This document shows, in pieces, positions 17,640 to 25,180 of a stretch of 64,000 bases of DNA. Origin of the DNA: Kribbella pratensis (GTDB lineage: Bacteria; Actinomycetota; Actinomycetes; Propionibacteriales; Kribbellaceae). Each line of letters opens with the position of its first letter. Positions within the stretch are counted from its first letter, which is position 1. Made by a program: the position numbers and the translations under genes. The stretch spans positions 186,001-250,000 of the forward strand of contig NZ_SODU01000005.1 of the NCBI RefSeq assembly GCF_004366075.1, read 5' to 3'. The notes below the pieces were generated by a model that worked only from the letters and a program-made list of their open reading frames with translations, was not told the DNA's origin and ran no database searches.

Positions 17640-18496
17640 TGGTCACCTCGCAGCAGCCGGAACTGCCCGGCCACGATCGCCAGCGTGAGCGCGACCAGGA
17701 TGACGACCTCGGCCTGGGCGACGTGGATGTCGCCGATCGCGTACGCGCGGCTGTAGACGTCGTACATCAGCAGGTTGCTGTTGCCGTTCGGGCCGCCCTT
17801 GGTGAGGATCTGCACCGGCGCGAACACGAGCAGGTTCGACACCGTGTCGGCGACCAGGACGAACGCCAGCGGACGACGTACCAGTGGAAGGACCACGGAC
17901 ACCATCCGGCGCCACGGGCCCGCGCCGTCGAGCAGCGCGGCTTCACGGACCTCTTCCGGGACCTCCTGGATGCCCGCGATCAGGAACAGCATCCAGTACC
18001 CGACGCCGATCCACGACAGCAGGACGATCAGCGACGGCAGCACCTGGCTCGGCGAGGTGAGGAACGGCTGCGCAGGCAGGCCGAGTCGTTCGAGGACGCC
18101 GTTCGCGAGACCGTCCGGCCGGTAGATGACGCTCCAGATCACTGCCGACACCGCAGGCGGGGTGGCTATCGGCAGGATCACGAGCGTGCGCCAGAGCTTC
18201 GCACCCGCGGCCCGCTGGGTGAAGAGGACCGCGAGCAGGAACGAGACCGCGACCTGGATCGGGTTCACCAGCACGGTGAACAGCAGCGTCACGCCGATCG
18301 ACTGCCGGAAGTCCTTGTTCGACAGCAGATCCGTGTAGTTGCCCAGGCCCGCGAACACCCGCCCGCCGCGCAGGAGGCTCTCGGTGTAGAAGCTCTCGAC
18401 CACGGCCGAGATCGCCGGGACGATCCGCAGTACGGCGAGACACACCAGCGCGGGGGCCAGGAAGGCGAGGGCGATCAGCCCCTGCCTTTGTTTCAC
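17636..18496 (-). CDS. Carbohydrate ABC transporter permease (MalF/CUT1-like)
   Basis: 286 residues with six membrane helices; the EAA loop is REAALLDGAGPWRRMVSVVLP near residue 190. The N-terminus is short and starts at ATG 18496, overlapping the stop of the binding-protein gene. Together with the downstream permease it forms the heterodimeric channel. Confidence 0.9.
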   Translation of the reverse strand: MKQRQGLIALAFLAPALVCLAVLRIVPAISAVVESFYTESLLRGGRVFAGLGNYTDLLSNKDFRQSIGVTLLFTVLVNPIQVAVSFLLAVLFTQRAAGAKLWRTLVILPIATPPAVSAVIWSVIYRPDGLANGVLERLGLPAQPFLTSPSQVLPSLIVLLSWIGVGYWMLFLIAGIQEVPEEVREAALLDGAGPWRRMVSVVLPLVRRPLAFVLVADTVSNLLVFAPVQILTKGGPNGNSNLLMYDVYSRAYAIGDIHVAQAEVVILVALTLAIVAGQFRLLRGDQ

Positions 18497-19791
18497 TTGA
18501 TCGACTTCCAGGCGTCGGTGAGCTGCCGGGTCGCCTCCTGCAACCGCGCGTCCGAGTTGGTCCCGTTGCGGATGTCGGCGAACGCCTTGCCCATGACTTC
18601 CTCGAACTGGATGTACCCGACACTCACCGGCCGCGACACCGCGGTGTGCTCACTCTCGTACGTCGTGATCGCGGCAGCACCGGCCGTCTTCGCGCCGGAG
18701 AACTTGTCCATCTGCGGTGTGTACTGCTTCTGCGCCTCGAGGTTCGCCGGGATGATCGTCGTCGTACTCGTGGTGGCCAGGTTGCCGGCCGGGTCCAGCG
18801 TCGCGAACTCGACGAACTTGCGCGCCATCCCCTGCTGCTTCGACGCCGGGTTGATGCCGACCGACCACGAACCGGTCGGCGTGACCGGCTTGCCGCCCTG
18901 GAAGTACGGCATCGGGGCGACGCCCCAATCGACCTTCGAGCTGCCGAAGATCTTCAGGTCCCACGGGCCGCCGACGAAGAACGCGACGTCACCGGCCGCG
19001 AACACCGGACCGGTCTGGAACCCGCCGATGCCGCGCGGCGACAGTCCGCTCGCGAACGTAGCGCCGTACCACTGCATCGCCTTCTTCCAGCCGTCGGTCT
19101 CGACCGCCGGGGTGAGTGCGTCGTCGCCTTCGATCCCGGATCCGCCGCCGAGCGACTCGGCCAGCGGCTGGAGCTGGTAGTACGCCTCGGGCTGTTCCAT
19201 GAACAGCCCGTACTTCGTGCCGCCCGACTGCATCGCCTTCCGGCCGGCGGCCTCGACCTGCTCCCAGGTCCAGCGCTGCTCCGGGTCCGCGGTCGGCGGC
19301 GTCACCTTGGCCTTGGCGAGCGCGGTCTTGTTGTAGAAGAGGAACTGCGTCGAGTTCCACATCGGCAACGACCACAGCTTGTCGCGGAAGTGGTTGGTCT
19401 TGTACGCCGTCGCGCTGAAGGACGTCTTCACCTTGGCGTCGAGGTCGCTGAGATCGGTGAGGAAACCCTTCGCGGCGAGCTGCGAGACCCGCGGTTCGTC
19501 GACGGTGTAGACATCGATCGCGGCGTCCTTCGCGCTCAGCCGCTGCTGCATGGTCGCGTTGAACTGGTCGAACGGGATCTGGGTGTAGGTCACCTTGATC
19601 CCGGGGTTCTTCGCCTCGAACGCCTTGATCACGGGCTGGTAGGTCTCGGCGTTGTCGGTGCCGGTGAACGTGATCGTGCCGGTCTGCGGACCTTGGTCCG
19701 CGGTGGCCGGAGCGCCGGTATCCGGCGAGCCACCGCATCCGGCGACGAGTGCCGCGACGGCAACGATCGCGGCGGGAAGTAGTCGCTGCAC
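18493..19791 (-). CDS. Extracellular solute-binding lipoprotein, ABC uptake
   Basis: 432 residues, family 1 solute-binding protein. A lipoprotein signal is clear: MQRLLPAAIVAVAALVAGC, with Cys19 as the lipidated residue, followed by an Asp/Thr/Ala-rich linker. The mature protein begins TGTITFTGTDNAETYQPVI, a typical beta strand-helix start of maltose-binding-like folds. GTG start. It is the first gene of the operon SBP-permease-permease-nucleoside hydrolase-LacI-(VOC), and the two LacI-type operators lie 38-63 bases upstream of the start. Confidence 0.9.
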   Translation of the reverse strand: MQRLLPAAIVAVAALVAGCGGSPDTGAPATADQGPQTGTITFTGTDNAETYQPVIKAFEAKNPGIKVTYTQIPFDQFNATMQQRLSAKDAAIDVYTVDEPRVSQLAAKGFLTDLSDLDAKVKTSFSATAYKTNHFRDKLWSLPMWNSTQFLFYNKTALAKAKVTPPTADPEQRWTWEQVEAAGRKAMQSGGTKYGLFMEQPEAYYQLQPLAESLGGGSGIEGDDALTPAVETDGWKKAMQWYGATFASGLSPRGIGGFQTGPVFAAGDVAFFVGGPWDLKIFGSSKVDWGVAPMPYFQGGKPVTPTGSWSVGINPASKQQGMARKFVEFATLDPAGNLATTSTTTIIPANLEAQKQYTPQMDKFSGAKTAGAAAITTYESEHTAVSRPVSVGYIQFEEVMGKAFADIRNGTNSDARLQEATRQLTDAWKSIK

Positions 19792-19828: not shown

Positions 19829-19854
19829 TCTAAGCGGTTAGACTAAGCGCTTAG
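19829..19854. promoter_or_regulatory. Two abutting LacI-type operators
   Basis: TCTAAGCGGTTAGA (19829-19842) and the perfect 12-bp palindrome CTAAGCGCTTAG (19843-19854) lie back to back, centres 13 bases apart. The CG-centred form is that of LacI-family operators; the regulator is the last-but-one gene of the operon. Confidence 0.75.
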
Positions 19855-19917
19855 ACCTCGCCTGTCCAGCGACTCCGGTGCTGTCCGATCCCGGGCTCAC
19901 CGACGTACTCTCAGCTG

Positions 19918-22900
19918 ATGAGGGTGGGGATTCTCGGGGCGGCGGAGGTCCTGCGGGACGGGGAGCCGGTGGAACTCGGTGGCCGGAAGCAACGCATGCT
20001 GCTTTCGGCCCTGGCGCTGTACGCCGGGCAACCGGTGCCGGTGGACAGCCTGATCGACATGCTGTGGCGGGACAGCCCGCCGCCGAGCGCTCTGTCGACC
20101 CTGCAGGTGTATCTCGCCGGCGTGCGCAAGGCACTGGAGCCGGACCGGCCGGCTCGCACCTTGCCGAGAACGGTGGTGACGGTGGCTCCGGGCTACGCCC
20201 TGCGCCTGCCCGGGGACTGCCTCGACGCAGCGCGGTTCGCCGCCGTCGTCGACGCGGCACATCGTCGCCTCGGCTCGTGGTCCGACGAGGTTTCGGGGGC
20301 AATCGCGGCGCCGGAACTCGAGCCAGACGAACTGGGCCCGGTCATCACCGCGCTCGACGACGCGCTGGCCTTGTGGCGAGGCACGCCATACCTCGATCTG
20401 GACGATGCCCCCGCAGCGATCGCCGAGCGCGGACGACTCGAGGAACTTCGGCTCGTGGCTCTCGAGGACCGCGCGGTCGCCCGGCTGGCGCTCGGCCTGC
20501 ATGCGACGCTCGCCGCCGAACTGGAGGCGCTCACAGCCGAGCACCCCCTGCGGGAACGGCTGTGGGCACTGCGCGTCCTGGCGCTTGCGGGTGCCGGCCG
20601 GCAGGCCGACGCGCTCGACGCGCTGCGCCGGGTGCGCAGGGTCCTGGCGGACGAACTCGGGCTGGATCCGGGCACACCGCTGCGTGAACTGGAACTCGCC
20701 GTCCTTCGCCAAGACCCGCAACTGGTCTGGCGGCCGAAGCCCGGCAACGGATCCCACGTCCTTCCAGTCGCCACCGGTCCTGTTCCTGATGCTGCTACTG
20801 GTGCTGCTACTGGTGCTGGTGCCGGTGGCGCGTCGCAGTGGCCGCTCGTCGGACGGGTCGCGGAGCTCGCGGCGCTCGAACGGCTGCTCGACGAAGCGGG
20901 TGCGGCACCGCAGTTCGCCGTACTCACCGGGGAGCCGGGAATCGGCAAGACCAGGCTGGCATCGGAGATCGCGGCGCGAGCGCGGTCGCGCGGATTCGCC
21001 GTACTCACCGGGCGGTGTTCGGAGGACGAGGGCGCACCGCCACTGTGGCCGTGGATCGGTGTCCTCCGGGCCCTCGCCGACACAGTCGATCTCCCGGACG
21101 CGGTACGGCGGCAGCTCGCCGAGCTGACCGGCCTACTGGAGCCCGGTGTCGCGGGACCGTCAGCGCCCGCGGAGGACGTGGATGCCGCGCGGTTCCGGCT
21201 GTGGACCATGACCTCCGATGTCCTGGTCTCCGCGTCGCGGATCCGGCCGCTGCTCGTGATCCTCGACGACCTGCATTGGGCCGACCCGTCGTCACTCAAG
21301 CTGCTCAGACATCTCGCCGACATGATCGACACCGGACGCCTGCTCGTCGTCGCCACTCGGCGAGCGGCTCCCGCGCTCGCGGGTCAGCTCGCGGCCGTAG
21401 CCGAGAGCCTCGCCCGGCGGCACGCACTGCGCCTGGACCTGCCGGGGCTGACGACGTCCGAGGCGGCCGCACTGGTCGAGGTCGCGACCCATCGCCAACC
21501 CGGCGGCCGGGAAGCGGAGGCGTTGCGTGCGCGGACGGACGGAAACCCCTTCTTCCTGGTCGAACTCCTCCGCGACGGCCGCGGGGACGTGCCGGCGGCG
21601 GTGACCGACATCGTCGCCCGCCGGGTCGCGAGGTTGCCCGAGGCAACCGGTGAACTGTTGCGCACCGCAGCTGTCATCGGCCGGGAGTTCGACCTCGCGG
21701 TCCTCGCCGCGGCGACCGGGTGCGACGAGGACGAGCTTCTCGACGCGCTCGATCCCGCGCTGGCCGCCGGTGTGCTCGCCGAGGGAGACCGGCTGGAGCG
21801 GTTCCGGTTCGCCCACGCGCTGGTGCGCGACGTGGTGTACGCCGGTCTGCCGGCGGCGCGGCGGGCTCGCCGGCACGCGGTGATCGCGCGGGTGCTCGAG
21901 GACACCGACGCGGCACCATCCGAGACTGCGCGGCACTGGCTGGCCGCCGGGCCGGCGCATGCGGCACGAGCCTGGCGGTCGGCTGCCGTCGCGGCCGAGC
22001 ACGCGACCCGGCTGTACGGGTACGACGAAGCGGCCGGGCTGCTCGCGGCCGCACTCGACGTACAGCGCACCGACGGCGCGGCCACCCCACTCGACCGGTA
22101 CGGCCTCTTGATGGCACGAGCCGACGCGTGCCGCTGGTCGGTCGATCGCGACGGCCTGGACGCAGCCCTGACCGCCGCCGTGCAGGAGGCCGAGCAGCTC
22201 GGCGACGTCGTACGCATGGCGCAGGCGGCGGTCAGTACCGCAGAGGGCGCCTTGTGGCAGACCCGCGCCTACGGGCGGGCAGATCGGCACATGATCGCGA
22301 CCCTGCGACGGGCGCTGCGGGAGCTGCCCGCAGAGGACCAGGAGCTGCGCTGCCGGGTCCTTCTCGTCCTGGCGACCGAGCTCTACCACACCGACGCGCC
22401 CGCCTACCGGGAGGCGTTGGTCGAGCAAGGCCTGGCGATGGCGCGCAGGCTCGGCGACCCCGCCTTGCTGGTGTGGGCCTGTCAGGCCGCGTTCATCGCC
22501 ATCTGGCGTCCGGCCACTGCGCCGGACCGTCTGCGGCTGGCGGACGAGGCCCTGGCCAGCGCGGTCGAGCAGGCCGACCCGGTACGCGAGGCGCTGGCGC
22601 GCACCCTCCGGGTGATCGTCACCTGTGAGCTGGGCCTGGTCGCGGAGATGCGGGACGAGATCAGCCGGCTCCGGCAGATCGCTGAGCCACGGCGGCTGGT
22701 GTACGTCCTCATCGTGCTGACCGAGCTCGAGCCACCGTGGCTGGCGATGCAAGGGCGGTTCGACGAGGCGGACCGGCTCATCGAGCAGCGGCGCGAACTC
22801 GTCGCCGGTGCCTCGCTCCCGCAGCGGGACGAGTCGATGGTCGCCGCCCCGGCGTGCATCGAGCTGTGGCGCACCGGCGCAGCCGGGATCGTGCCCGCGT

Positions 22901-23322
22901 TCCGGGCGCTCGCGTCGGTCAGTCCGATGCCGTTCGACCTGACCGTCCAATGGCTGCTCGTGCGGGCCGGCCGGCTGGAGGAGGCGCGCACGGTCCGGGC
23001 CGAACCGGTTCCGTCCACCGACGACTGGGTCTCGGTGCACCACTACTGCATCGCGGCCGAGGTCGCCTTCGCCCTGGAGCGGCCCGCGGCGGCGCGTTCG
23101 GTGTACCACTGGCTGAGTCCGTACGCGGGACGCGTCTGCAGCGCCGGATTCTCGGTGGCAATAGGTCCGGTGGACGCCTTCCTGGCCTTCGCGGCGATGG
23201 CGTCGGGCGAACGCGAGATCGCGAGCCGGCACGCCGACACGGCGCTGGAGTTGTGCGCCGAATGGGAGATCCCGCTGGCCGCACAGTGGTTGCGCGAGCA
23301 GCGGGATCGCGGCGGCTTCTGA
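19918..23322 (+). CDS. SARP-type (BTAD) ATPase transcriptional regulator
   Basis: 1134 residues. Residues 1-90 are an OmpR-type winged helix (MRVGILGAAEVLRDGEPVEL, GGRKQRMLLSALAL, PGYALRLP), 95-250 the BTAD helical domain, then a linker with repeated TGAATGAG-type residues, and an AAA/STAND ATPase: GEPGIGKTRLASEIA near 340 (Walker A) and LLVILDDLHWADPSSLKLL near 445 (Walker B). The last 500 residues are helical repeats. There is no C-terminal LuxR domain. AfsR-like proteins activate stress or secondary-metabolite genes. TACTCT six bases before the ATG implies a leaderless mRNA. The adjacent hemerythrin and PNPOx genes with their repeat array are likely targets. Confidence 0.85.
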   Translation: MRVGILGAAEVLRDGEPVELGGRKQRMLLSALALYAGQPVPVDSLIDMLWRDSPPPSALSTLQVYLAGVRKALEPDRPARTLPRTVVTVAPGYALRLPGDCLDAARFAAVVDAAHRRLGSWSDEVSGAIAAPELEPDELGPVITALDDALALWRGTPYLDLDDAPAAIAERGRLEELRLVALEDRAVARLALGLHATLAAELEALTAEHPLRERLWALRVLALAGAGRQADALDALRRVRRVLADELGLDPGTPLRELELAVLRQDPQLVWRPKPGNGSHVLPVATGPVPDAATGAATGAGAGGASQWPLVGRVAELAALERLLDEAGAAPQFAVLTGEPGIGKTRLASEIAARARSRGFAVLTGRCSEDEGAPPLWPWIGVLRALADTVDLPDAVRRQLAELTGLLEPGVAGPSAPAEDVDAARFRLWTMTSDVLVSASRIRPLLVILDDLHWADPSSLKLLRHLADMIDTGRLLVVATRRAAPALAGQLAAVAESLARRHALRLDLPGLTTSEAAALVEVATHRQPGGREAEALRARTDGNPFFLVELLRDGRGDVPAAVTDIVARRVARLPEATGELLRTAAVIGREFDLAVLAAATGCDEDELLDALDPALAAGVLAEGDRLERFRFAHALVRDVVYAGLPAARRARRHAVIARVLEDTDAAPSETARHWLAAGPAHAARAWRSAAVAAEHATRLYGYDEAAGLLAAALDVQRTDGAATPLDRYGLLMARADACRWSVDRDGLDAALTAAVQEAEQLGDVVRMAQAAVSTAEGALWQTRAYGRADRHMIATLRRALRELPAEDQELRCRVLLVLATELYHTDAPAYREALVEQGLAMARRLGDPALLVWACQAAFIAIWRPATAPDRLRLADEALASAVEQADPVREALARTLRVIVTCELGLVAEMRDEISRLRQIAEPRRLVYVLIVLTELEPPWLAMQGRFDEADRLIEQRRELVAGASLPQRDESMVAAPACIELWRTGAAGIVPAFRALASVSPMPFDLTVQWLLVRAGRLEEARTVRAEPVPSTDDWVSVHHYCIAAEVAFALERPAAARSVYHWLSPYAGRVCSAGFSVAIGPVDAFLAFAAMASGEREIASRHADTALELCAEWEIPLAAQWLREQRDRGGF

Positions 23323-23323
23323 G

Positions 23324-24034
23324 TCAGGCGTAGCGGAACGCCGCGCGTTCCCGGCGCTCGAACGGGCGCCGCCAGAAGAGCCGCCACACCAGTTCCATCG
23401 GACGCCCCGCCATGGAGTCGCGAACCCGCCCGAAGTGTTCGGCCGGCAACCCGTACAGGGCCCACGAGGCGATGAACGGCAGGTCGCGCGGGCCGTAGGC
23501 GGGCTTGAACTGCTCCGTCTCCAGCCGATGCCAGTCGGCGTCGACCAGATAGCGCTGGACCAGGACCATGGCGTCGCGCTCCTCGTGCGCCAGGTGTCGC
23601 GCCAGGAGTTCCCCCAAGGCGACCACACGCACCTCCAACGCATCCCGCGCGTCGACGTCGGCGTACGCCGCCAGTCGCTCGAATCCCGCCGTACACGACG
23701 TCAGGAGGGGGTCGATCTCGGCATGCTCATCCTCCATCGCCTCCAGCGTCGCCCGGCTGTCGGCGTCCGCCTTGGCCATCAGGAGCGGCCACAAGCCGGC
23801 GTCCTCGCCGGTGTGGTGCTTGTGCAGGATCTCGCAGAACCTGCCCCATCGCGTGGCGAGTGCCCGCCAGGTGCCGCGGTCCTCCACCGGCGTGCGGATG
23901 ACGGCGGTCTTGAAGGCGGCGAGGTCGCGACGGAACCCGTGGTGCATGACGTACATGGCGGTCAGGTCCACCGGTCCGGGCGGTGCGGCCGCCTGTCCCG
24001 GCAGCATCAACTGATCGACGGTCGCTGTGCTCAT
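23324..24034 (-). CDS. Hemerythrin-like (HHE) protein
   Basis: 236 residues. The first 160 form the hemerythrin four-helix bundle with iron-ligand motifs YVMHHGFRRDL, HKHHTGEDAGLW, DEHAEIDPLL and HLAHEERDAMV at the expected intervals. The C-terminal 75 residues (from about 165) carry YGLPAEHFGRVRDSM and a basic end. Such proteins bind a diiron centre and sense or scavenge O2, NO or peroxide. It ends two bases after the SARP gene (convergent) and is divergent from the PNPOx-like gene, from which a symmetric repeat array separates it. Confidence 0.85.
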   Translation of the reverse strand: MSTATVDQLMLPGQAAAPPGPVDLTAMYVMHHGFRRDLAAFKTAVIRTPVEDRGTWRALATRWGRFCEILHKHHTGEDAGLWPLLMAKADADSRATLEAMEDEHAEIDPLLTSCTAGFERLAAYADVDARDALEVRVVALGELLARHLAHEERDAMVLVQRYLVDADWHRLETEQFKPAYGPRDLPFIASWALYGLPAEHFGRVRDSMAGRPMELVWRLFWRRPFERRERAAFRYA

Positions 24035-24078
24035 CAGCGGTTCCTTCCTCTCGAGCTGCGCCTACCGTCTCCCAGCTC

Positions 24079-24165
24079 GCTTGGAAGGCGCTTGGGGCCG
24101 AACCTGAAGCGGACCCCAAGCCGAACCCAAGCGACCGCGCGGATGATCCTTCCAAGGACCCAAGG
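24079..24165. promoter_or_regulatory. Symmetric array of 11-bp-spaced repeats, candidate SARP sites
   Basis: GCTTGG occurs at 24079 and 24090 (11 bp apart); its complement CCAAGC occurs at 24116 and 24127 (11 bp apart). The two pairs are exactly symmetric about 24105.5. A looser pair CCAAGG follows at 24152 and 24160. SARP proteins bind direct repeats spaced by one helical turn, and a SARP gene is next door. The array lies between the divergent hemerythrin and PNPOx starts. Confidence 0.65.
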
Positions 24166-24178
24166 GGAGGAATTGTCG

Positions 24179-25180
24179 ATGAACACCGTGTCCGCACCGT
24201 CGGTCTCGCGCTGGCCCGCGGAGGTGCTGCCGCTCTTCGAACGTGCCATCACCTGCGAGTACGCGTCGCTCACCCGTTCGGGCGCACCGATCACCTGGCC
24301 GCTCACGCCGTACTACGACCCGGGCGCGACGACCGTCGACGTCAGCACCGGGCTCACGTATCCGGCCAAGGCGGAGCGTGCCCGGCGTGACCCGCGCGTC
24401 GCTCTGCTGTTCTCCGATCCGACCGGTTCCGGCCTGAGTGATACACCGGTTGTTCTGGTCCGGGGGTTGGCGACGGTTCGAGACGCCGACCTGCAGGCCA
24501 ACACGGATCTGTACGTGCGTCGCGTGCTGGAGAAGCTGCCGCAGACAGTGACCGGGCAGCCGTGGTTCTTGGTACGGCGGCAGCAGTGGTACTGGGGCCG
24601 GCTGTGGATCGAGATCACGCCGCTGAAGATCCTGTGGTGGCCTGCCGGTCAGCTCGACGCCGAGCCGCTCCGCTGGGACGCCCCCGCAGACGTAACCGCA
24701 CCGCCGTCGGATCCGGCGCCCGAGGGTGCCGCACCGCCGCCGTGGGCCGCACCACCGGCCGACTGGCGGCCGGGGGCCGATCGCGCGATGCGACTCGGCC
24801 ACCCGGTACTGACCGTCCGCGACGCGGAAGGCTGGCCACTGCCGCTGCGATCGCTGGGAGTCGAGCGGGTGGACGACGGCTTCGTGGTCCGGACCGGTGC
24901 GCTCGGCACTGCGGCCGCCGGTCGGGCCTGTCTGACGTTCCACGACCATCCGGAAGTCTTCACCGGCCAGGAGAACGCCGCATTCGTCGGCACTGCGACC
25001 CCGGCTGCTGGCGGCGTCCATGTCCGGGTCGACCGTGCGCTGGCAGACTTCAGCCTTCCGACCGGCCGCTTCAGCCAGCTGCGGAGATTCGTGTCCAGCG
25101 GCCGGAAGTTGACGCCCCGACTTGCTCACGAGGCCGCTCGCAGACACCAGCCGGTACCGGTCGTCCGCCGTCCTGAATGA
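24179..25180 (+). CDS. PNPOx-like split-barrel flavoprotein, two domains
   Basis: 333 residues from ATG 24179, with GGGGAGGAA a few bases upstream. The first 160 residues resemble the pyridoxamine-phosphate-oxidase split barrel (ITWPLTPYYDPGATTVDVSTG, ARRDPRVALLFSDP, VLVRGLATVRD). A Pro-rich linker (about 175-200) joins a second barrel-like domain (RLGHPVLTVRDAEGWPLPLRSLGVERVDDGFVV). Members bind FMN, F420 or heme; the cofactor here is unknown, though cofC in the window shows F420 is made. Divergent from the hemerythrin gene and probably controlled with it. Confidence 0.72.
   Translation: MNTVSAPSVSRWPAEVLPLFERAITCEYASLTRSGAPITWPLTPYYDPGATTVDVSTGLTYPAKAERARRDPRVALLFSDPTGSGLSDTPVVLVRGLATVRDADLQANTDLYVRRVLEKLPQTVTGQPWFLVRRQQWYWGRLWIEITPLKILWWPAGQLDAEPLRWDAPADVTAPPSDPAPEGAAPPPWAAPPADWRPGADRAMRLGHPVLTVRDAEGWPLPLRSLGVERVDDGFVVRTGALGTAAAGRACLTFHDHPEVFTGQENAAFVGTATPAAGGVHVRVDRALADFSLPTGRFSQLRRFVSSGRKLTPRLAHEAARRHQPVPVVRRPE

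Follow-up and report, generated by a model that had tools for sequence, protein, structure and literature searches.

Probable back-to-back SARP sites in a divergent promoter between hemerythrin and split-barrel genes of Kribbella pratensis

In the published register of SARP-controlled promoters, direct repeats are positioned 11 or 22 bp apart and the 3' repeat lies 8 bp from the -10 element (PMC10936776). The AfsR-afsS system of Streptomyces coelicolor resembles the locus described here. Two 11-bp direct repeats precede a poor -10 element (CACTGT in afsS), the AfsR box spans positions -40 to -19, and the regulator combines a SARP domain with an ATPase (PMC10936776). The operators of the SARP-LAL regulators PimR, SanG and PolR consist of 2-3 repeats of the heptamer CGGCAAG with 4-bp spacers, i.e. 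an 11-bp period. They serve antibiotic clusters, and the main PimR operator is reported to be clear of the -35 element (PMC5930380, PMC10972967). SARP sites in divergent promoters are known for SanG and PolR (PMC10972967) as well as for OtcR, whose direct repeats, 11 bp apart, are found in the presumed bidirectional promoters of the oxy/ctc intergenic regions (PMC4393881).

The window, which is the whole 64,000-nucleotide stretch of Kribbella pratensis DNA that was analysed, contains a large SARP regulator next to two divergently oriented genes. The identities of the three genes agree with the original prediction, which placed a repeat element between hemerythrin and PNPOx-like genes beside a 1134-residue SARP.

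19918..23322, + strand: large SARP regulator, 1134 amino acids; winged-helix DNA-binding domain, BTAD and AAA_16 ATPase (Pfam PF00486, PF03704, PF13191)
23324..24034, - strand: hemerythrin HHE-domain protein (HHE), 236 amino acids; PF01814, E 6.7e-15
24179..25180, + strand: PNPOx-like split-barrel protein (PNPOx), 333 amino acids; assigned from an AF2 model and Foldseek

The region between HHE and PNPOx contains two pairs of direct repeats in mirror orientation, each followed by a -10-like hexamer.

24057, - strand: predicted HHE transcription start, placed by the -10 position together with the register of the AfsR promoter (PMC10936776)
24064..24069, - strand: -10-like hexamer GACGGT for HHE, 9 nt from the left arm
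24079..24095, - strand: left arm, a pair of SARP-type direct repeats with the sequence CCAAGC-n5-CCAAGC in the direction of HHE (plus strand GCTTGG-AAGGC-GCTTGG)
24105..24110, + strand: degenerate third repeat TGAAGC of the right arm, 11 bp from the next repeat
24116..24132, + strand: right arm, a pair of SARP-type direct repeats with the sequence CCAAGC-n5-CCAAGC in the direction of PNPOx (minus strand, 24132-24116: GCTTGG-GTTCG-GCTTGG)
24142..24147, + strand: -10-like hexamer on the PNPOx side, GATGAT, separated from the right arm by 9 nt
24154, + strand: predicted PNPOx transcription start, from the -10 position and the same AfsR register (PMC10936776)
24163..24170, + strand: likely ribosome-binding site AGGGGAGG of the PNPOx gene, read from the sequence by eye

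We propose that two SARP sites lie back to back in a divergent promoter at 24064-24147, and that its activator is most likely the adjacent large SARP. We assign this reading a probability of about 0.8.

Similarities and differences to the described systems can be observed. The spacing in the window fits the published AfsR-afsS register (PMC10936776), while the AfsR box, CGTT(T/C)ATCGNN, differs from the CCAAGC boxes of the window (PMC10972967). Furthermore, the window has two mirrored boxes where AfsR-afsS has one, and the base-contacting residues of the regulators differ. PimR, SanG and PolR share with the window the CAAG core of the repeats as well as the combination of a SARP domain and a large ATPase half (PMC5930380, PMC10972967). 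The GG that precedes this core in the PimR-type CGGCAAG is absent from the window boxes (PMC5930380), and the sections of the reports considered here mention no mirrored pair of direct-repeat sites for these regulators (PMC5930380, PMC10972967). OtcR targets tetracycline-type antibiotic clusters (PMC4393881), whereas the window contains a large SARP together with a hemerythrin and a split-barrel protein. A hemerythrin-like domain as in HHE is also found in MsmHr, which has been linked to the H2O2 response (PMC4295536), and RICs are hemerythrin-like di-iron four-helix bundles (PMC9268430). Unlike for the predicted HHE protein, the consulted sections of these papers mention no SARP partner for MsmHr or RIC (PMC4295536, PMC9268430).

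The SARP protein carries the OmpR-like DNA-binding domain (PF00486, 30.1 bits, cut-off 26.2) and the BTAD (PF03704, 115.2 bits, cut-off 22.1) that define large SARP regulators. Their central ATPase, of NB-ARC or AAA type, is represented by AAA_16 (PF13191, 94.2 bits, cut-off 32.6); no NB-ARC match is listed by Pfam. The residues after about 480, where a TPR region would sit, have no Pfam match at E 0.001. Among PDB sequences, residues 1-269 match EmbR (E 8.9e-36) and AfsR (E 4.4e-33). Since the base-contacting residues T88 and R92 of AfsR align with V64 and G68 (alignment read by eye, numbering fitted), the recognition mode is not transferable from AfsR. An assignment as AfsR orthologue was rejected, as the score of 145 bits misses the NCBIfam NF053617 equivalog cut-off of 1430 bits. 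In SARP-LAL regulators of the PimR type the ATPase half is related to LAL or guanylate cyclase proteins; the score of the window SARP against the kinase/cyclase model TIGR03903, 110.6 bits, is far under the cut-off of 705.75.

The Pfam match (PF01814, 56.1 bits, cut-off 25.3) and the His/Glu pattern identify HHE as a hemerythrin HHE-domain protein. Residues H31, H73, E77, H104, H147 and E151 are invariant in 18 aligned module sequences, some of them fragments, and constitute what we take to be the hemerythrin ligand pattern. The AF2 model is all-helical (pLDDT 90.7). Foldseek returned no match at E <=0.001 for this model, and the similarity to a solved hemerythrin domain is weak (E 0.56 or more, TMt about 0.7).

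PNPOx has no Pfam match. Its AF2 model (pLDDT 92.9, from an alignment of 31 sequences) contains two beta-rich halves, which we read as a tandem split barrel. Foldseek found 85 matches at E <=0.001 (best 7e-8), and split-barrel proteins of the FMN, F420 or heme type predominate among the top 50 of these 85, with most alignments covering one barrel. The model thus indicates a split beta-barrel fold, and the original label of PNPOx-like protein is correct as a fold, with no cofactor implied. Membership in the F420-dependent PPOX class TIGR03618 was considered and rejected (25.8 bits, cut-off 79.05).

The mirrored element had been described as symmetric to the base about 24105.5. The hexamers and their coordinates are exactly symmetric about this centre, whereas the n5 spacers of the two arms differ. 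The description of each arm as two repeats was correct for the pairs but overlooked the degenerate third repeat TGAAGC and the -10-like hexamer located 9 nt outside each arm. The exact pattern GCTTGG-n5-GCTTGG has 2 matches in the window and 2 in the 8.39-Mb genome, one per strand and both at 24079-24132. When up to 2 mismatches are allowed, the window contains 6 matches. Shuffled sequences average 5.07, and the relaxed pattern is therefore not enriched. One of the 4 inexact matches (24105-24121, - strand) corresponds to the degenerate inner repeat in the right arm. The reversed control pattern has 10 matches in the 8.39-Mb genome (2+8), and a single arm alone is therefore unremarkable. The extended pattern CMAAGY n5 CCAAGY n10 A n3 T, which includes the -10 positions, has 2 matches in the window and none in 100 shuffles. 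As for further regulon members, the exact box with the -10 is found in its own genome at this locus only. Across 38 Kribbella genomes it has 8 matches, 5 of which are located at the module (in all 4 genomes that contain it) and 3 in two genomes without the module. As the reversed control also has 8 matches, the pattern alone is unspecific; its position and conservation are specific.

On both sides of the window, the last repeat is located 9 nt from the -10 when counted from the hexamer and 8 nt when counted from the heptamer, in agreement with the distance of about 8 bp in SARP-controlled promoters, and the repeats have the corresponding 11-bp spacing. The original assignment of the repeats as SARP targets in form is thereby upheld. 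If the -10-like hexamers are set at -12 to -7, the repeat hexamers fall, by arithmetic, at -27 to -22 and -38 to -33. These positions are inside the published SARP-contacted stretches, and the arms therefore resemble two complete back-to-back SARP promoters. Judged by its sequence, each mirror arm is best read as a putative SARP site for its own promoter. The earlier proposal that one regulator dimer set could drive both promoters is not supported: neither the repeat pair nor the -10-like hexamer is shared between the arms, and one would expect two pairs of protomers.

The three genes are conserved as a unit. PNPOx orthologues with at least 80% identity are present in 4 of 38 Kribbella genomes, with a partial 33% match only in a fifth genome. 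The same four genomes contain the orthologues of HHE (at least 79%) and SARP (at least 80%), and in all four the module is adjoined by CAAX-protease and gltX genes. Weaker HHE matches in G025 and G019 bring the total for HHE to 6 of 38; for SARP, weaker matches in G019 and G014, plus a second one in G033, likewise give 6 of 38. Relatives of PNPOx were collected by peptide patterns with one genome per species, resulting in 38 loci, and the presence of SARP and HHE was assessed by tblastn at E 1e-8 within the locus DNA only. Both genes are located near PNPOx in Kribbella, Nonomuraea, Microbispora, Sphaerisporangium, Acrocarpospora, Planotetraspora, Microtetraspora and one Frankia locus. In the locus DNA of L013-L015, L018, L021 and L041, SARP was found but HHE was not, and neither gene was found in that of L016, L030-L035, L038-L040 and L042-L046. 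The gene order of the window (SARP> <HHE PNPOx>) is common to Kribbella, L036 and L047. Other arrangements are the operon-type order SARP> HHE> PNPOx> (L017 type), PNPOx> <SARP (L013-L015) and HHE> <SARP PNPOx> (L012). The linkage to SARP persists at about 33-42% SARP identity in several gene orders. The three-gene unit of the original prediction is thus borne out in Kribbella, and it is rearranged in other actinomycetes.

Ten neighbours of PNPOx relatives from six loci (L013, L031, L034, L042, L045 and L046) have no common theme. They include ornithine cyclodeaminase-like, NADAR, methyltransferase, histidine kinase, MerR, copper amine oxidase and aminotransferase proteins, among others, and 2 of the 10 are without a match. 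L036 and L038, both from Nonomuraea jabiensis, contain PNPOx paralogues with CCAAGA-type repeats upstream of each, and SARP is linked to one of them only; the pair is possibly a two-locus regulon. In an Anaerolineae MAG (L035, 4812-6993) two PNPOx relatives are arranged in tandem, with no SARP or HHE match in the locus DNA.

The 11-bp period emerges from a motif-free analysis. Among the repeat lags, 11 ranks first by z both in the 4 Kribbella intergenic regions (58 matches; shuffles average 3.6) and in 9 other loci (41 matches; shuffles average 10.7, with a maximum of 26 in 100 shuffles). In a 26-locus set lag 51 is slightly above lag 11 by z (14.1 vs 13.7), which we put down to related coding ends. 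Box variants across the loci include CCAAGC, CCAAGT, CCAAGA, ACAAGT and similar hexamers. By eye, the repeats have a single orientation in L013-L015, the operon-type loci and L041. Mirror symmetry was consequently dropped as the key feature, as many relatives are single-oriented and the conserved features are the period and the -10 gap. In operon-type loci the box is located just before HHE, at a gap of 20 (9+11, one extra turn) from a hexamer that is mostly CAC(G/T/C)CT; this gap was picked after those loci were inspected. The repeats before HHE lie mostly inside the 3' coding end of SARP (by eye; L017, L019, L020, L022-L029, L037, L053, L055-L057), so that regulatory and coding constraints overlap.

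The distance between the repeats and the -10 is nearly invariant among promoters with a clear pair. In 18 promoters chosen for a visible, clear pair (the last pair being used at three-repeat sites), nAnnnT begins exactly 9 nt after the last repeat in 17, with L038 as the sole miss, which corresponds to the SARP distance of about 8 bp. The set leaves out L011 (PNPOx side), L012 (both sides), L018, L021 and the operon-type loci. No nAnnnT begins at gaps 1-8, 10 or 11, single or double counts occur at 0, 12, 19, 20 and 22, and the background frequency is 119 of 4392 positions (2.7%). When reduced to one promoter per lineage and direction, with L038 omitted, 8 of 8 have gap 9. A first gap scan of 13 regions, some of them miscut, had given a weak peak at 9 (9.54 vs 9.31 at gap 6).

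Regions upstream of PNPOx and/or HHE were then scored for a CAAG pair of 11-bp period and a -10-like hexamer, with a threshold of 10 of 12. Of 36 SARP-linked regions, a set that includes many close relatives, 33 reach the threshold. So do 3 of 3 regions with a suspected box and no linked SARP, none of the 16 regions upstream of PNPOx relatives that lack a SARP homologue in the locus DNA, and 0.6% of 3360 shuffles. A score of 10 is attainable without both -10 positions. L011 and L012 (PNPOx side), which have no clean -10 at 9 nt, pass with one of the two -10 positions, L012 in a register other than that of the repeats seen by eye. L012 (HHE side), L025 and L056 are below the threshold with a score of 9, and the L010 HHE-side region as used ends 6 nt short of the ATG. 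With periods of 10 and 12, the threshold is reached in 6 and 10 of the 36 regions, respectively. The original prediction had been staked on conservation of the repeat in orthologous loci, and the repeat recurs there, both in the 17 of 18 promoters with gap 9 and in the 33 of 36 regions.

As gap 9 was first spotted by eye on the same loci, the rule was fixed before its trial on 18 later loci. Thirteen near-copies (>97% identity) were dropped and five loci were kept (L102, L105, L107, L109 and L111). Four of the five pass: L111 has gap 9 on both arms, and L102, L105 and L107 pass at gap 20, as in the earlier operon-type loci. L109 fails with a score of 9. Counted by region, 5 of 6 pass, or 5 of 8 if the PNPOx-side regions of L102 and L105 are included (score 7, uncounted because they lie inside the HHE gene). 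Periods 10 and 12 give 2 of 6 and 0 of 6. L107 has no HHE match in the locus DNA. Because L102, L105 and L107 resemble earlier operon-type loci, L111 is the most independent new locus. It is a mirror locus with the layout of the window and an inner gap of 9 bp (by eye).

The -10-like hexamers on the HHE side of the six mirror loci are GACGGT, CACGGT, GACCGT, CACGGT, CACGAT and CACGAT. The inner gap between the pairs is 10 bp in L009 and L010, 9 bp in L036 and L047, 20 bp in the window and 21 bp in L011. The longer gap is filled by a third right-hand repeat, which is intact in L011 and degenerate in the window, and which sits at the same inner spacing of 9-10 bp. The inner edges of the -10 hexamers are 61-62 bp apart in L009, L010, L036 and L047 and 72 bp apart in the window. 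In K. antiqua (L010, 5886-5900, - strand), the HHE start codon is located 6 nt past the -10-like hexamer (GACCGT AAGGCC ATG), which suggests that this mRNA may be leaderless.

The boxes could be SARP sites with a different physiological binder, another SARP of the genome, while the adjacent SARP has its targets elsewhere. Large SARPs are numerous: of the 10 genomes searched, 5 contain between 3 and 8 matches with E values of 1e-60 or better (those of Nonomuraea, Planobispora and Herbidospora; the other five gave no large SARP match). In addition, L016, L038 and L046 contain box-like repeats and no SARP in the locus DNA, and trans-acting SARPs could bind there. However, the co-occurrence of the three orthologues in the same 4 of 38 Kribbella genomes argues against a different binder, as does the linkage kept at about 33-42% SARP identity in several gene orders, and we consider it unlikely.

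It is considerably less probable still that the inverted repeat is the operator of another dimeric regulator, such as a repressor, or a nucleic-acid hairpin, with an incidental likeness to SARP sites. The two arms are 76% complementary over 21 nt, and a cruciform or hairpin is possible in principle. Against this reading stand the loci with repeats in a single orientation (by eye) and the conservation of the 11-bp period and the gap to nAnnnT in place of the symmetry. We give practically no weight to chance repeats in a GC-rich intergenic region. Although reversed controls also occur (10 in the own genome, 8 in the 38 genomes), two arms are present within 54 bp and are conserved in divergent loci, and the 0.6% of shuffles at the threshold stands against the 33 of 36 regions. 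The mirrored arms are a real element and not a product of chance.

In the preferred reading, each arm, with its two repeats at 11-bp spacing and the core CCAAG, would be occupied by two SARP DNA-binding domains arranged side by side. This pair would substitute for a poor -35 element and recruit RNA polymerase to the -10-like hexamer 9 nt downstream. HHE would be driven from the left arm and PNPOx from the right arm. The adjacent large SARP would be the most likely activator, with its ATPase and C-terminal part gating the output upon a signal. The two products may have a diiron/flavin-type redox role; the O2/NO/redox stress function of the original prediction is suggested by the hemerythrin and split-barrel family names only. 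It is possible, if rather doubtful, that the mirror arrangement is a functional device in which two contacting SARP dimers load two polymerases under one redox- or small-molecule-sensing ATPase switch. The idea of contact comes from the 9-10 bp between the pairs in 4 of 6 mirror loci (L009, L010, L036 and L047), from the third repeat at this spacing in L011 (intact) and in the window (degenerate), and from the 9 bp in L111 (by eye). Such a device would provide matched output of the diiron protein and its split-barrel partner, and a dedicated SARP stress circuit outside antibiotic synthesis.

As SARP sites in divergent intergenic regions have already been published, the kind of site is known and the target module is new. 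The novelty lies in this conserved module and the tight back-to-back layout. A search of the open-licence literature found no paper that names SARP together with hemerythrin or with Kribbella, and nothing on this module among its best-ranked matches, in agreement with the earlier claim that the system is undescribed. Via promoter sites also present in distantly related actinomycetes, the locus connects a small hemerythrin/split-barrel gene pair with a large SARP, and regulators of this class are known mainly from antibiotic clusters. Owing to its compactness, the system would be suited to studying which signal is sensed by a large SARP, and whether two SARP complexes can operate back to back when their -10 elements are 61-72 bp apart.

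No box that would indicate autoregulation was seen by eye upstream of the SARP gene in the printed upstream regions. Two near-identical palindromes, CTAAGCGGTTAG (19830-19841) and CTAAGCGCTTAG (19843-19854), 13 bp apart, are located in the intergenic region that SARP shares with a divergently oriented gene for an ABC-transporter substrate-binding protein (18493-19791, - strand). They are also present in L011 (K. pratensis) and, by their sequence, look like an operator of another regulator. At 19906-19920, a TACTCT hexamer is followed 6 nt on by the SARP start codon, which suggests that the SARP transcript may be leaderless.
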